Positions 2,757 through 11,885 of a stretch of 11,885 nucleotides of DNA are shown here, in pieces (positions within the stretch are counted from its first letter, which is position 1; the number at the start of each line of letters is the position of its first letter). The translations under genes were made by a program, and so were the position numbers. Source of the DNA: Lactobacillus helveticus DSM 20075 = CGMCC 1.1877 (GTDB lineage Bacteria; Bacillota; Bacilli; Lactobacillales; Lactobacillaceae); the NCBI RefSeq assembly GCF_000160855.1, contig NZ_GG700759.1, positions 31,420 through 43,304 of the forward strand, in the 5' to 3' direction. The notes beneath the pieces were generated by a model that was given only the letters and a program-made list of their open reading frames with translations, had not been told where the DNA came from and made no database searches.

Positions 2757-3773
2757 TTATTTATCACCTGGAACTGGCAAACCCAGTTGCAAATATGCCT
2801 TGTCTGTCACCATTCGGCCACGTGGCCCAAGCAAAATAAATCCATGCTGCAACAAATAAGGCTCATAGAGTGATTCGATCGTTTCCATATCTTCACCCAC
2901 ATTAGCAGCTAAAGTTCTAATTCCAACCGGTCCGCCATTATAGCCTTCAATCATTGTCCGCAATAAACGACGATCAGTTTGATCTAATCCCTCATCATCA
3001 ACTTGAAGCTGCTTCAATGCACCTTCAGTTGTAGCAAGAGAAATTGTCTTTTCACCTTTAACTTCGGCGAAATCACGAACCCGCTTCAAAAAACGGTTGG
3101 CTACACGTGGCGTTCCCCGTGAACGACGAGCTAGCTCATGAGCTGCTTCGGGTGCAATGGAAGTATGGAAAACATCGCTTGATCTTTGGACAATCTTTTC
3201 AAGTTCATCAATTGTGTAGTACTGCATGTGTTCGACAATACCGAATCGATCTCGCAAAGGTGCGGACAATTGCCCAGCCAAGGTCGTTGCCCCAATCAAA
3301 GTAAATGGTGGCAATGGCACATGAACGGCATGAGTAGTCTGTCCTTCACCAATTACAATATCAATATAATAGTCTTCCATTGCAGAATACAAAACTTCTT
3401 CAACAGGCTTAGCAAGACGATGGATTTCATCAATAAACAGCACATCCCCTGGATCAAGGTCTGAAAGCAGAGCTACTAAATCGCCTGCTTTTTCAATTGC
3501 TGGACCACTTGTACTCTTTAAATGCACACCCAGTTCATTTGCAATTACAAAAGCTAAAGTCGTCTTACCTAAGCCTGGTGGTCCATAAAGCAAGACATGG
3601 TCCAAAGCCTCATCACGCTGTTTTGCGGCTTTAATATAAATGGACATTTCCTTTTTAACCCGTTTTTGACCTAAATATTGATCTAAAGTTTGGGGTCTCA
3701 AAGATAATTCCATTGCCTCTTCTTCAGAGTTTTCTACTTCACCTGAAGTTACTGCATCTTCATTTTCTACCAT
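2757..3773 (-). CDS. ruvB: Holliday junction branch migration ATPase RuvB
   Basis: Hexameric AAA+ motor that, loaded by RuvA, drives branch migration of Holliday junctions in recombinational repair; cytoplasmic. With ATG at 3771-3773 the protein has 338 residues, the normal family length. Numbered from there: [12 protein letters not shown] (25-36), Walker A GPPGLGKT (64-71), Walker B LFIDEIH (112-118), sensor 1 IGATT (160-164), arginine-finger region LRDRFG (173-178), sensor 2 RGTPRVANR (219-227), and a C-terminal winged helix (about 255-338) with [11 protein letters not shown] and GPRGR. The frame could extend to TTG at 3800, but a good ribosome binding site (AAGGAAG, 3782-3788) lies 8 nt before ATG 3773 and inside that extension. 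It follows ruvA after a 48-nt gap that holds an extended -10 promoter motif. The usual downstream queA-tgt pair is absent. Confidence 0.98.
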
Positions 3774-3781
3774 CAGTTTCA

Positions 3782-3788
3782 CTTCCTT
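3782..3788 (-). promoter_or_regulatory. Ribosome binding site that decides the ruvB start
   Basis: AAGGAAG on the minus strand, 8 nt before ATG 3773. It excludes the upstream TTG (3798-3800) as the likely start and yields a protein of normal RuvB length. Confidence 0.75.
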
Positions 3789-3808
3789 ACTTATTATCAA
3801 TCTTTACC

Positions 3809-3821: not shown

Positions 3822-4412
3822 CTACTTCTTAAGCAGTAATGCCAAGCCTTTTTTAATATATTGATCGGCTGTATCCGCATTAACTTCTTCAAGCTTAGGA
3901 GTAATTCGATCTAATTCTTTTTGAGTATAACCCAAGGCAATCAACGCTAACAAGGCATCATTCAATGCTGGTGGGATATTTCCTTGTTCTTCATCTTGAC
4001 GATCAAGTCGAGCAACATAATCGCGTAGCTTGCCCTTCAAATCAAGCACAATCTGAGAAGCCGTTTTTTTACCCACACCAGGGAAACGAGTAAGATACTT
4101 AACTTCTCCCTGCTCAATTGCTTCGGCCAAAGAATTGGCATCTTCAGCTGCCATGATAGCCAATGCGCTTTTAGGGCCGATCCCACTAACGCTTAACAGC
4201 TTAAGAAAGAGCTCCTTGTCATCTTCGCTTTGAAAACCATACAAGGTAATTCCCGTATCTCTTACAACTTGTTCAATAAAGATTTTAGCTTTATCTCCCT
4301 TTTGATAGGCGAAAGGAGTTGGACTATATACCTTATAACCTACACCATTTACATCAACTACGATATAACTAGGCGTAATGACTGTAACTATTCCTTCAAA
4401 ATATTCGTACAT
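3822..4412 (-). CDS. ruvA: Holliday junction DNA helicase subunit RuvA
   Basis: Binds four-way junctions as a tetramer and loads RuvB. The 196 residues match the family length (about 200). Domain I is an OB-fold (1-62: [25 protein letters not shown]); domain II carries two helix-hairpin-helix motifs, [13 protein letters not shown] (74-86) and [13 protein letters not shown] (110-122); domain III (about 149-196), which contacts RuvB, follows an acidic, Gln-rich linker. The acidic pin, Glu55-Asp56 in E. coli, aligns with Asp52-Thr53, so only one acid is kept; whether this is normal for the genus I cannot tell. The ATG directly abuts the mutL stop (GAATAA/ATG), and its ribosome binding site AAGGTGA lies inside the last codons of mutL, so it is probably coupled to mutL translation. 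Confidence 0.98.
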
Positions 4413-6323
4413 TTATTCACCTTTCTTGAACATTTTTCTTAATTCATTTTGACTTATCCGCACTAAAATAAGGCGACCGTCTGCATCGTGATACGGATCG
4501 GACGTTTTACGCAAATCTGTGATAATTTGTGTACCTTCTGCAGCGGATAAATTAATTTTGCCTTTAACACTGCGTTTTGCTTCTAAAGCTGCCACTCGTT
4601 TAAATAAATTTTGTGTTTTGCCTTTATCAAGATTTAAATAATTATCCAAAATTTCACGAATGGATTCTTCAACATGATCGTGGATCCAGGTAGGATATGA
4701 GCGCACAATAAAACTATTTTGACCAAATTCATCTAAATATATACCTAGCTGTTTAATTTGATAAATCTTATCCTTAATTTGTAGAAAATCTAAATTGCCA
4801 AATTCTAAAACAATCGGTGTCAGTAAGCCTTGTTGAACTATTTTTTTAGAGGTAATAGTTTGATAAATCTGTTCAAACTGAAGACGTCTTCTGGCTGCCA
4901 CTTGGTCAATCAAATACAAATCGCCATCATTTTCAGCTAGCAAATATGTATCAATTTTTCCCACATAAGCAAGACGCGGCAAATTATTAGCAAGAGTTTC
5001 ATCCCCAGTCGAAATAACTTCTTGATCCACCTTTTTATTGCTAAATGGCATCAACTTCTGCTGCAAAGCAACATTCTTATCCCAAGTTTTAGTAATGATA
5101 TATTGATCATCTTCCCGAGGAATATTGATATCCACATAGTTATGCTCAGTTTCGTTCTTAGGCTCTTCAGAATTTTTAGCTTTTTGTTTTACTAAAAATT
5201 CTGGCTTTTCAGCTTCTTCATGAACTTCTGGCGTTTTACGCGTTGTATTAACAACATCTTGATTCAAGTTGAATTCTAATTGATCAACTAGAGTCTCACG
5301 TTTATTTTCTAAATTGGCAAAACCACTGCTTTGTTCAGTTTTGTCTAGCAAAGCATCGCTAATGGCACCAGTGATCAAACGACTGAGCTCTTTTTCCTTA
5401 GATAAACGAACCTCTTGCTTGGTTGGATGGACATTCACATCCACTAGCATTGGATCAACGTGAATAGCGATCACAACGATTGGATAATGACGCGCTGCTA
5501 ATTTTGAGCCATAACCATCCATAATGGCATTATTTAATTGAAAGTTCTTAATATAACGGCCATTCAATAAAATCGAAATAAAGTTGCGCGTAGAGCGTGT
5601 TAATTCAGGCTTGGACATTAAGCCTGTAATCTTAAAATCGCTATCTTTTGCTTCAAAACTTTCCATTTTTTCAGCAATATGTCGACCGTATACATTGGCG
5701 ACTGTTTGCTTCAAATTGCCATTGCCAGTTGTTCTGAATAAAACTTTGCCAGTATTCGACAAGGTGAATGAAACATGTGGATAACCTAATGATAAACGGT
5801 TAATGATATCCACAATTTTCATAATTTCGGTCCGCGGACTACGCAAATATTTTAATCGAGCAGGCGTATTAAAGAACAAATCTCGAACTGTAATTTTAGT
5901 CCCCTTTTGTGACGCTGCATCTTCTTGGCCCTTTTTACTGCCGCCACTAAAGTCCGCCTTAATTCCAATTGCATTTTCTGTAGCCGTTACAATTTCAACA
6001 TGGCTAACAGCGGAAATTGAGGCTAAAGCTTCACCGCGGAATCCTAAAGTAGAAACTTTAAACAGATCATGCTCATTGCTAATCTTGCTTGTAGCATGCC
6101 TAGTAAAGGCTAAATCTACTTGGTCACGTGCAATACCAGTCCCATTATCTTGAACTACGATTTGCTTTAATCCGGCATCAATAAAATCGACTCGAATTCT
6201 AGTTGCACCCGCATCTAATGAGTTTTCCACAAGTTCTTTAACTACACTAGCAGGACGCTCTATTACTTCACCTGCTGCAATCTGATTAGTTAAATTTTCA
6301 GATAGCTCGTGAATTTTAGCCAT
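4413..6323 (-). CDS. mutL: DNA mismatch repair protein MutL with degenerate endonuclease site
   Basis: Links mismatch recognition by MutS to strand removal. The 636 residues have two parts. The N-terminal GHKL ATPase is intact: ENSLDAGA (33-40), DNGTGI (59-64), TLGFRGEAL (92-100), plus VNVHPTKQEVR near 297-307. A charged linker (about 325-445) precedes the dimerisation domain. In MutL from bacteria without MutH that domain nicks DNA using DQHAxxExxxxE, an (A/S)C-K-x-x-I/V motif and CPHGRP. Here these read DQVAARRRLQFE (473-484; His to Val, Glu to Arg479), EAKRSVK (581-587; Cys to Ala582) and DADGRL (613-618; Cys, Pro, His and the final Pro lost). The clamp-binding motif QxxLxP is kept (Gln498-Leu501-Pro503), as is FIVRSYP. 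I infer loss of metal-dependent nicking. The ATG overlaps the mutS stop by 1 nt; the stop abuts ruvA. Confidence 0.97.
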   Translation of the reverse strand: MAKIHELSENLTNQIAAGEVIERPASVVKELVENSLDAGATRIRVDFIDAGLKQIVVQDNGTGIARDQVDLAFTRHATSKISNEHDLFKVSTLGFRGEALASISAVSHVEIVTATENAIGIKADFSGGSKKGQEDAASQKGTKITVRDLFFNTPARLKYLRSPRTEIMKIVDIINRLSLGYPHVSFTLSNTGKVLFRTTGNGNLKQTVANVYGRHIAEKMESFEAKDSDFKITGLMSKPELTRSTRNFISILLNGRYIKNFQLNNAIMDGYGSKLAARHYPIVVIAIHVDPMLVDVNVHPTKQEVRLSKEKELSRLITGAISDALLDKTEQSSGFANLENKRETLVDQLEFNLNQDVVNTTRKTPEVHEEAEKPEFLVKQKAKNSEEPKNETEHNYVDINIPREDDQYIITKTWDKNVALQQKLMPFSNKKVDQEVISTGDETLANNLPRLAYVGKIDTYLLAENDGDLYLIDQVAARRRLQFEQIYQTITSKKIVQQGLLTPIVLEFGNLDFLQIKDKIYQIKQLGIYLDEFGQNSFIVRSYPTWIHDHVEESIREILDNYLNLDKGKTQNLFKRVAALEAKRSVKGKINLSAAEGTQIITDLRKTSDPYHDADGRLILVRISQNELRKMFKKGE

Positions 6324-8920
6324 TATTTATCATCCTTCAAGTCTTTTTGCCAATTAGCCACCATTTGCATAATCTGCAGTGGTGTCTTATCAGCTAAATA
6401 AAGATTAGAAATATCATCCAGCACCTCTTGTTCCGCATCGGTCATTGGACTGTTTTCACTATCGTTATCATCCACTTCATCAGAAGCAGCTTCCGGTTGG
6501 GCAAATAAATCTAGCTGTTGGCTAACTGGAGCCAATTCACTGCCTTGTGCTTCTAGACGCTTTAGCAACTTAGTTGCTTCACGTAAAACGGTACGTGGCA
6601 AGCCAGCAAGCTGTGCAACATGGATACCATAACTTTGATCAGCAGGACCTGGCAAAATCTTGTGTAAGAAAATTAACTTACCGTTTTCTTCAGTTGCACC
6701 AACATGGATATTTTTCAAATAATCCAGCGTTTCATCAAGACTTGTTAATTCATGATAGTGAGTGGCAAAAAGTGCTTTAGCTCCTACTTTATCATGCAGA
6801 TATTTAACAATTGCACCTGCTAAAGCCATACCGTCATAAGTAGCTGTACCACGTCCAATTTCATCGAATAATACAAGACTGCGTTTAGTAGCATATTGCA
6901 AAGCATCATTTGCTTCACTCATTTCCACCATGAAAGTACTTTGACCAGAGATCAAATCATCGGCTGCACCAATACGGGTAAAAATTTGATCAAAAATAGG
7001 CAAAGCAGCACTATCAGCGGGAACAAAAGAACCAACTTGGGCCATAATTGCAATTAATGCCATCTGCCGCATATAAGTACTCTTACCTGACATGTTTGGT
7101 CCAGTAATCAAAAAGATATTTGTAGCAGAATCCATCTTCACATCATTAGGAATGTATGAACCTGCAGTCATTACTTTTTCCACAACCGGGTGACGGCCAT
7201 TAACGACATCAATGTCTTGACTATCAGTATGGAAAGATGGACGACAATAATTATTTTGTTCAGCAACTGTAGCGAAGCTACAATAAACGTCCAAGGCAGC
7301 TAATTGATTGCCTAATTTTTGCAAAGCAGGAATGTACTTCTTAACTTCATCACGCAATTGAACAAATAAATCATATTCCAGATCAGTTGAGCGAGTTTGA
7401 GCCTCTAATATTAGATTTTCGTGTTCTTTTAACTCTGGGGTAATGTAGCGTTCGGCATTAGTTAAGGTTTGCTTACGAGTATAGCGATCAAGAGGCACCT
7501 TGCTCTTGTTACCATTAGAAACCTGAATATAATAACCAAAGACCTTATTGAAACCTACTTTTAAGTTTTCAATTCCTGTCTTTTGACGTTCATCAGTTTC
7601 CATTTGAACCAGCCATTTTTTACCATTATTCATGGCATCCCGATAGCGATCAAGCTGTTTATCCACACCATCTCTGATTAATCCACCTTCTGTAGTTAAA
7701 AGCGGTGGATCTTTTACTAAAGTTGTAGAAATTAATTCAGCAACACCCTTTAAAGGATCAATTTTTTTGGCAAAATCTGTCAAAACATCACTGTCAGATT
7801 GATTGAGAGCATCAAGAATAACTGGGACTGCTTGCAAAGAACGTGATAATTGCAATAATTCACGGGCATTTACATTTCCAAAGGCAATCCGTCCTGTTAA
7901 GCGTTCTAGGTCATAAACGCCCTTTAAGGCATCAATAATGTTTTCACGAGTGAAATAGCCATCAAGCAATGCTTGGACCATTTTCTCACGATGATTAATG
8001 ATATCCACGTTTAACAATGGACGGGCCAACCACTGCTTAAGAAGACGACCTCCCATGGCTGTATGAGTTTTATCCAATACCCAGAAAAGTGAGCCCATCT
8101 TTTTACCGGTCTTAGCTGATGCCACTAATTCCAAATTATTTTGTACAGTGTGTGACATCTGCAAATATTGATTTACTTCATAGCTCTTAGCAATTTGTAA
8201 GTGGGCTAAACTTCTCTTTTGGGTTGAAAGCAAGTAGCCAACTAATTGACGCGTTGCAGACTTTTCTGCTCCATTAGTCAAGTTTTGTTCAACGTAAGAA
8301 ATTTCCGCATGTTCGCCTTCAATTGGTGTAGGTGCAGAAACCGTAATATTAGCCTTGTGCATAAAGTCTTTGTTTTGCTCAGTTAATGGACCGTTATACA
8401 CAACTTCTCTTGTTCTTAAAGACAAAAGTTCATTAGAAACTGCGGCGAAACTCTTTAAATGAGTAGAATAAATTTCACCGGTGGATAAATCACTGTAAGC
8501 TAAACCAAAACCACTTTTAGTAGTAACCACAGAAGTTAAATAATTAGAATCCTTAGCATCATTAGGTCCTTCATTCATCATGGTACCTGGAGTTACTAAC
8601 TGAATGATGCCTCGCTTTACCATGCCTTTAGCTTTTTTAGGATCTTCAAGTTGTTCACAAAGAGCGACTTTATACCCTTTTTCAACCAAAGTATTCACAT
8701 AAGTATCCACAGCCATGTGTGGAACGCCTGCCATTGGAATAGGGTTCTTGGTCTTATTTGATCGATGAGTCAGAGTTAATTCCAGAATCTGTGCCCCTTT
8801 AACCGCATCATCTTCAAATAATTCATAAAAATCTCCGACGCGATAAAAAAGAAAGGCGTCAGGATATTGTTTCTTGATTTCATAATACTGCTCCATCATA
8901 GGAGTTGTTTTCTCAGCCAT
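6323..8920 (-). CDS. mutS: DNA mismatch recognition ATPase MutS
   Basis: Recognises base mismatches and small loops and recruits MutL. The 865 residues cover the whole MutS1 architecture: mismatch-binding domain with GDFYELF (29-35; Phe31 and Glu33 are the mismatch wedge residues), connector, lever/clamp region, and a C-terminal ABC-type ATPase with Walker A TGPNMSGKST (606-615), signature STFMVEMSEAND (661-672), Walker B LVLFDEIGRGT (682-692) and FATHYHELT (718-726). After the ATPase there is a beta-clamp binding peptide QLDLF (802-806) and an acidic stretch (814-823) before the short C-terminal segment. ATG at 8918-8920 has an AAAGGG site 6 nt upstream. It is the first gene of the mutS-mutL-ruvA-ruvB run, separated from groEL by a terminator and a candidate promoter. 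Confidence 0.99.
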   Translation of the reverse strand: MAEKTTPMMEQYYEIKKQYPDAFLFYRVGDFYELFEDDAVKGAQILELTLTHRSNKTKNPIPMAGVPHMAVDTYVNTLVEKGYKVALCEQLEDPKKAKGMVKRGIIQLVTPGTMMNEGPNDAKDSNYLTSVVTTKSGFGLAYSDLSTGEIYSTHLKSFAAVSNELLSLRTREVVYNGPLTEQNKDFMHKANITVSAPTPIEGEHAEISYVEQNLTNGAEKSATRQLVGYLLSTQKRSLAHLQIAKSYEVNQYLQMSHTVQNNLELVASAKTGKKMGSLFWVLDKTHTAMGGRLLKQWLARPLLNVDIINHREKMVQALLDGYFTRENIIDALKGVYDLERLTGRIAFGNVNARELLQLSRSLQAVPVILDALNQSDSDVLTDFAKKIDPLKGVAELISTTLVKDPPLLTTEGGLIRDGVDKQLDRYRDAMNNGKKWLVQMETDERQKTGIENLKVGFNKVFGYYIQVSNGNKSKVPLDRYTRKQTLTNAERYITPELKEHENLILEAQTRSTDLEYDLFVQLRDEVKKYIPALQKLGNQLAALDVYCSFATVAEQNNYCRPSFHTDSQDIDVVNGRHPVVEKVMTAGSYIPNDVKMDSATNIFLITGPNMSGKSTYMRQMALIAIMAQVGSFVPADSAALPIFDQIFTRIGAADDLISGQSTFMVEMSEANDALQYATKRSLVLFDEIGRGTATYDGMALAGAIVKYLHDKVGAKALFATHYHELTSLDETLDYLKNIHVGATEENGKLIFLHKILPGPADQSYGIHVAQLAGLPRTVLREATKLLKRLEAQGSELAPVSQQLDLFAQPEAASDEVDDNDSENSPMTDAEQEVLDDISNLYLADKTPLQIMQMVANWQKDLKDDK

Positions 8921-11276: not shown

Positions 11277-11885
11277 CTAGTTTTCCATGTATTGAGCAAA
11301 ACTCAGAGCCGTTTTGTCCTGTTTGTCCTTAGTAACGTGAGTGTATATGTCCATTGTAGTTTGAATGCTTGCATGTCCTAACCGTTGTTTTACGTCTTCC
11401 ATAGGAACACCCGCATCAAACAATAAAGAAGCGTGAGTATGTCTAAAACCGTGTATTTTGATACGTCTTAGCCCGTTCTTATCGCAGATTCTTTTATTCC
11501 ACACCGCTACAAGATTTGGACGCACAACCTCATTATCGAAGTTTTGAAATACTACTTGCTCTTTATCAAAAGGATTAAAGCCTAGCCGTAGCAAGTCCTG
11601 TCTTTGCTGAAAACGCCACTCTTTTAATAATTGCATCGTTCTAGCATCCATAGAAATTGCTCTGTTTCTTTTGGTTTTCGTGGTATTGTTGACCACTACT
11701 CTATGCTTGTTACCAATAGAAACCGTTTTGTTAATGCTAATAATATTACTAGTAAAGTCAATATCTGACCATTTAAGCGCTAATGCTTCACCTTTGCGCA
11801 TTCCACTATAGGCAAGCAAGCGAAAGAATGTATATATCTTAATATTCTCATTTTTAGACGCTGATTGTAAAATTAAATTGAACAC
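11277..11885 (-). CDS. Tyrosine recombinase/integrase, C-terminal part (5' end beyond window)
   Basis: Site-specific recombinase of the phage-integrase family that inserts or excises a mobile element. 202 residues are visible and the reading frame runs off the right edge; the GTG at 11883-11885 is an internal codon, so the N-terminal arm-binding and core-binding domains are outside. The catalytic domain is complete: Arg30 in SGMRKGEAL, a likely hairpin Lys in TKTKRNR (70-75), His145 and Arg148 in HGFRHTHASLL, His171 in LGHASIQTT, and the nucleophile Tyr181 in MDIYTHVT. These match integrases of Gram-positive prophages and Tn916-like elements. It ends with TAG (11277-11279), about 150 bp upstream of the predicted groESL transcription start. 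No excisionase, repressor or tRNA is visible, so the type of element cannot be named; it presumably lies to the right. Confidence 0.93.
   Translation of the reverse strand: MFNLILQSASKNENIKIYTFFRLLAYSGMRKGEALALKWSDIDFTSNIISINKTVSIGNKHRVVVNNTTKTKRNRAISMDARTMQLLKEWRFQQRQDLLRLGFNPFDKEQVVFQNFDNEVVRPNLVAVWNKRICDKNGLRRIKIHGFRHTHASLLFDAGVPMEDVKQRLGHASIQTTMDIYTHVTKDKQDKTALSFAQYMEN

Follow-up and report, generated by a model that had tools for sequence, protein, structure and literature searches.

The window, meaning the whole stretch of 11,885 nucleotides analysed here, carries mutS and mutL side by side on the minus strand. The mutS gene (6323..8920, minus strand) encodes 865 residues and matches TIGR01070 with 1078 bits. 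The mutL gene (4413..6323, minus strand) is an open reading frame of 636 residues with the Pfam domains DNA_mis_repair, MutL_C and HATPase, and its product shares 100% identity with record P0002 of Lactobacillus helveticus. The mutS stop and the mutL start overlap by one base, so that the tight coupling of the two genes claimed in a preliminary description of this DNA is borne out. The ruvA frame (3822..4412, minus strand) starts on the base directly after the mutL stop. The names of ruvA, of ruvB (2757-3800, minus strand), and of groEL and groES, which lie upstream of mutS on the same strand, were recognised from the translations. Beside groES, a frame at 11277-11885 (minus strand) reaches the window edge and, judging from its translation, resembles the C-terminal part of a tyrosine recombinase/integrase. 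No RNA family reached the gathering threshold in the window. The genome-level counts given below refer to the genomes of relatives in Lactobacillus.

The N-terminal ATPase domain of MutL (NTD, residues 1-328; 5340..6323, minus strand) was assigned from its match to solved MutL ATPase domains, with a best E-value of 1.8e-102 over residues 1-325. It is a GHKL ATPase domain of the MutL family, with matches to PF01119, PF13589 and PF02518, and is intact as the preliminary description had claimed. The C-terminal domain (CTD, residues 447-636; 4416..4985, minus strand), whose nuclease site is lost, was defined with a structure model and a fold comparison, and it matches MutL_C (PF08676) with 100.8 bits. 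In NCBIfam, the protein takes its endonuclease name from TIGR00585 (578.8 bits against a cut-off of 180); it misses the cut-off of NF000950 (684.2 against 756 bits).

According to a passage of PMC10366529, the metal ions of MutL endonucleases are held by three conserved motifs. The C-terminal part of the window MutL was aligned by HMMER to the B. subtilis MutL CTD 3gab_A (E-value of 1.3e-26), and three altered stretches fall on DQHAAQERIKYE, SCK and CPHGRP of that chain. Motif I is DQVAARRRLQFE (473-484; 4872..4907, minus strand) in place of DQHAx2Ex4E, motif II is EAKRSVK (581-587; 4563..4583, minus strand), which has no Cys, and motif III is DADGRL (613-618; 4470..4487, minus strand) in place of CPHGRP. 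The stretches lie where the preliminary description had put them, and its claim that the metal ligands are gone from all three motifs holds throughout the clade alignment. None of the 73 distinct clade rows has the His or the first Glu of DQHAx2Ex4E, the Cys of the ACR/SCK motif, or the Cys or the His of CPHGRP (0/73 for each of these five ligands). For the intact rows of the same alignment, the motif I ligands are present in 45/45 and the motif II and III ligands in 44/45, the single gap being the truncated L070. Identical proteins were collapsed before the clade alignment, the residue pairing, the tree, and the dN/dS and identity comparisons.

In the window MutL, motif I still has its Asp (D473) and its last Glu (E484), and motif III has its Arg (R617), with Asp at both the Cys and the His positions. 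The Cys column of motif II is a gap by deletion in 71/73 rows; the two remaining rows have V or K there. A Cys occurs within the last 70 residues in 27 of the 71 MutLs of the genus, yet never at the motif positions. The window MutL very probably does not nick DNA, as judged from these residues, and the database name 'endonuclease MutL' is probably wrong for these Lactobacillus proteins.

The loss of the endonuclease residues is wider than the preliminary description had reported; it covers the Lactobacillus genomes examined and Amylolactobacillus. A MutL match was found in 71 of the 75 Lactobacillus genomes searched, one per matching genome, and neither DQHA nor CxHGR occurs in the C-terminal part of any of them (0/71). 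One of the 71 (G193) is a partial frame at a contig edge with one stop. Genome contigs were also scanned with the window MutL, and 29 Lactobacillus loci were obtained. The MutL C-terminal family was detected in 146/151 genomes of an even Lactobacillaceae sample, and the scores fall clearly apart: 138 genomes reach at least 130 bits, and the other 8 no more than 106. Six of the low scorers belong to Lactobacillus and the remaining two to a single other genus; the MutL of one of these two is 100% identical to that of Amylolactobacillus amylotrophicus. The MutLs of both Amylolactobacillus-genus genomes lack the metal ligands, and the motifs are also missing from four more proteins near the Amylolactobacillus one (51-73% identical). 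All of the 138 high-scoring MutLs read have DQHAx2Ex4E, and 137 have all three motifs. The exception, L070 (genome G021, outside Lactobacillus), has DQHA, and its frame ends before motifs II and III; it is a truncated MutL or a frameshift.

MutL_C was detected in 245/246 genomes of an order-wide sample, and the ten with E-values above 1e-33 are all Lactobacillus. Among the other order-wide genomes, 14 MutLs were read (the ten weakest and four more), and all three motifs are present in 14/14; the remaining genomes were judged by score. MutL_C was also detected in 249/250 genomes of a class-wide sample. Besides two known Lactobacillus genomes, six genomes of Bacilli in that sample (G501, G473, G455, G547, G606 and G623) show unusually weak MutL_C scores, with E-values from 1e-28 to 2e-32, and these could be further losses of the nuclease motifs. 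Five of the 151 Lactobacillaceae genomes (G043, G079, G109, G135 and G159; 1.7-2.0 Mb) have no MutL_C. A whole-protein MutL search found no match in four of them, and a marginal match over part of the ATPase domain in G109 (E-value of 8.3e-4). The five possibly belong to a hypermutable lineage without mismatch repair, such as Oenococcus. Four Lactobacillus genomes (G185, G207, G215 and G219) matched neither MutL nor Smr; at least some of them are small or fragmented assemblies, and the genes may therefore be missing from the assembly only.

The preliminary description had called for the loss to be mapped across Lactobacillaceae, and the loss falls on one branch. The tree was built from the ATPase domain of 45 intact and 72 lost rows, with the columns of the trait itself excluded and the partial L149 omitted. 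It shows one change between the intact and lost states, with support of 100/97, and one change was counted in all 200 bootstrap trees. With high confidence, the loss is real, old and clade-wide, in an otherwise maintained repair protein, and the comparisons support this well.

The CTD was modelled with a mean pLDDT of 91.6. The eight best structure matches of the model are chains of the B. subtilis MutL CTD (3gab, 3kdg and 3kdk), with TM-scores of 0.84-0.89, and two chains of 1x9z, which we take to be the E. coli MutL CTD, gave 0.65-0.66. The fold of the CTD is therefore confidently predicted to be retained. The CTD also has a putative sliding-clamp-binding motif, QGLLTP (498-503; 4815..4832, minus strand), which fits QxxLxP and is conserved. 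Gln498, Leu500, Leu501 and Pro503 are invariant in 73/73 rows, the pattern Qxx(L/I)xP is found in the CTD in 71/71 Lactobacillus genomes, and QxxLxP-type patterns occur in 137 of the 138 intact Lactobacillaceae relatives. MutS at the 29 named loci has the DFYE mismatch motif in 29/29 and a clamp-like QxxLF motif in 28/29.

In the lost clade (82 pairs of 38 sequences), the CTD has a median dN/dS of 0.088 and the NTD one of 0.034; in the intact relatives (7 pairs of 11 sequences only), the respective medians are 0.033 and 0.026. The pairs lack independence, and dS is high for many of them. At NTD identities of 0.62-0.68, with the motif positions excluded, the CTDs of the lost clade have a mean identity of 0.43 (540 pairs) and those of the intact relatives one of 0.62 (206 pairs). 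The partial L149 and the truncated L070 were omitted from both comparisons. By these measures, the constraint on the CTD in the lost clade is clearly relaxed yet far from gone.

Several simpler readings were rejected. Decay to a pseudogene was ruled out by the intact frame in the window, the low dN/dS (about 0.09 for the CTD) and the genus-wide state, in agreement with the earlier claim that the gene is not decaying. A sequencing or frame error was ruled out by the same state in 71 genomes. A transferred E. coli-type MutL was rejected, as the nearest fold is that of B. subtilis and the ATPase-domain tree, which has no E. coli row, joins the protein to Lactobacillaceae. A phage origin was rejected, as 20/20 matching phage records are below 60% identity. 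A second MutL as partner was rejected on one match per matching genome, although a very divergent copy could be missed.

The residues now found at the former metal site are themselves conserved. Where intact MutLs have the first Glu of motif I, 68 of the 73 rows carry Arg, 2 Lys, 1 His and 2 Ala; in place of the Cys of motif III, 71 rows carry Asp and 2 carry Ser. Paired by row (479 and 613 in the window), the two positions hold a basic residue with Asp in 71/73 and Ala with Ser in 2/73, the latter being the Amylolactobacillus-genus rows. It is highly improbable that the CTD still cuts DNA with a metal site rebuilt from conserved residues such as Asp473, Asp609 and Asp613. Such a site would find candidates in the opening Asp of motif I, kept in 72/73 rows, and in newly conserved acidic residues, namely Asp at 613 (71/73), 609 (69/73) and 468 (67/73). 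The preliminary description had considered that other conserved residues might supply the ligands; Asp613, however, goes with the basic residue at 479, which counts against a metal site at that place, and Arg479 (68/73) occupies the old one. Amylolactobacillus has Ser and Ala there, not Asp and Arg. The Asp of motif I is described in a passage of PMC10366529 as critical but not a ligand, and it may cap a helix; Asp473 corresponds to this helix cap in A. aeolicus MutL, and its conservation is thus as expected. The Arg of CPHGRP, called catalytic in the same passage (PMC10366529), is kept in only 15/73 rows, the window included. A salt bridge instead of a metal at positions 479 and 613 is a fair guess, drawn from few independent changes, because the residues at both positions bind metal in intact MutLs.

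If MutL cannot nick, the strand signal would have to come from existing nicks or another nuclease, as the preliminary description had argued. MutH, the partner of MutL in E. coli, was found in 0/75 Lactobacillus genomes and was recovered in the E. coli control, in keeping with its earlier supposed absence. NucS of the EndoMS/NucS repair was found in 0/75 Lactobacillus genomes and in 7/14 controls. The RNase HII family is present in 14/14 control genomes and in 73/75 Lactobacillus genomes; the two that lack a match have assemblies of 0.8 and 0.9 Mb. Exactly one match to this family was seen in 72/75 Lactobacillus genomes; B. subtilis has two such enzymes, RNase HII and HIII. The reading that we prefer, with a probability of about 0.6, is that MutL docks on the clamp, does not nick, and depends on strand breaks that replication or RNase HII leaves behind. 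The second-ranked reading, which we regard as unlikely, is a separate nickase of this clade, unrelated to MutH or NucS, that MutS, MutL and the clamp would activate for a strand-directed cut like that of MutH in E. coli. It is well established that in E. coli a non-nicking MutL works with a partner nuclease, and Smr proteins, mostly in frames of MutS2 size, are found in 70/75 Lactobacillus genomes. Smr is, however, also present in 9/14 control genomes, including B. subtilis and Lactococcus lactis, and is thus not a clade-specific gain; MutH and NucS are missing from all 75. RNase HII, present in all 14 controls, is an ordinary gene and gives no special support to the preferred reading either, and since both are ordinary genes, the presence of RNase HII and MutS2 merely leaves these options open. 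It is improbable that MutL in this clade has largely left replication mismatch repair for a different task that needs no nicking, for instance the prevention of recombination between diverged DNA sequences. The faster evolution of the CTD and the adjoining ruvA would fit such a task, but mutL beside ruvA may be ordinary gene order, and the NTD dN/dS is close to that of the intact relatives (7 pairs only). Furthermore, MutL retains its clamp motif and MutS, by pattern in 28/29 loci, a clamp-like one, and this retention speaks for a role coupled to replication.

According to the preferred reading of a clamp-docked MutL using existing breaks, the metal-dependent nuclease site would have been lost once, in the ancestor that Lactobacillus and Amylolactobacillus share, and MutL would have been kept as a non-nicking ATPase recruited by MutS. 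The protein presumably dimerizes through the same C-terminal fold and docks on the sliding clamp, which would orient it. In Lactobacillus, two former ligand positions would have become the conserved basic-Asp pair, which may join the helix and the loop once bridged by the metal. Mismatch repair, provided that it functions as the selection implies, would start from breaks that already mark the new strand, namely Okazaki-fragment ends and RNase HII nicks at misplaced ribonucleotides. As MutL is without the metal-holding residues yet its gene is kept under selection, the faulty strand is probably found in Lactobacillus by means other than the textbook one. We infer the mechanism that replaced the lost nicking with moderate confidence. 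The complete scheme is tentative, with chances a little short of even: a genus-wide MutS-MutL repair without a dedicated incision enzyme, in which a nuclease-dead MutL locked by the salt bridge docks on the clamp and breaks from replication and ribonucleotide repair are used. Weighing against the preferred reading, the CTD is under weaker constraint than in the intact relatives.

Passages of the literature describe the general rule. Bacteria without MutH are said to depend on a nicking MutL (PMC12733681, for 'many bacteria'; PMC9159922, where the 2014 work of Banasik and Sachadyn on conserved MutL motifs is cited). In one excerpt, the nuclease motif is ascribed to all MutL homologues except those of some gammaproteobacteria with MutH (PMC3848065), and in another, MutLs are endonucleases 'with a few exceptions' (PMC10366529). 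A Pseudomonas review discusses the ends of Okazaki fragments and the nicks made by RNase HII as natural sites where repair might start in a bacterium that has no MutH, and calls the leading strand unclear (PMC8744996). Part of a recombineering review covers the use of L. reuteri, L. lactis, L. plantarum and L. gasseri, with evasion of mismatch repair for the first two (PMC4155826). A nuclease-less Lactobacillus MutL is not reported among the literature matches listed, a search outside which most subscription journals lie. Lactobacillus, a much-used genus, thus appears to break the rule that MutH-less bacteria carry a nicking MutL. As a natural nuclease-free setting, it allows one to ask whether existing breaks suffice to tell the strands apart, particularly on the leading strand, and why MutL retains a clamp motif without a nuclease to direct.

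Eukaryotic Mlh1 and Mlh2 are familiar MutL homologues that have no nuclease site but nevertheless function in repair, either as a partner or in an accessory role (see also PMC4014439). Mlh1, however, works beside a nuclease-bearing subunit, whereas the Lactobacillus genomes with a match show one MutL each. E. coli MutL, like that of Lactobacillus, is generally held to have no nuclease motifs of its own, in line with part of the Pseudomonas review (PMC8744996). It partners MutH, whereas MutH is found in none of the 75 Lactobacillus genomes, and its CTD is less near the Lactobacillus model than that of B. subtilis according to the TM-scores (0.65-0.66 against 0.84-0.89). The B. subtilis MutL (3gab, 3kdg and 3kdk) is a MutH-independent endonuclease, and the Lactobacillus protein differs from it in having none of the five ligands compared. 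The two share the domain order, the predicted CTD fold, the clamp motif and a setting without MutH.
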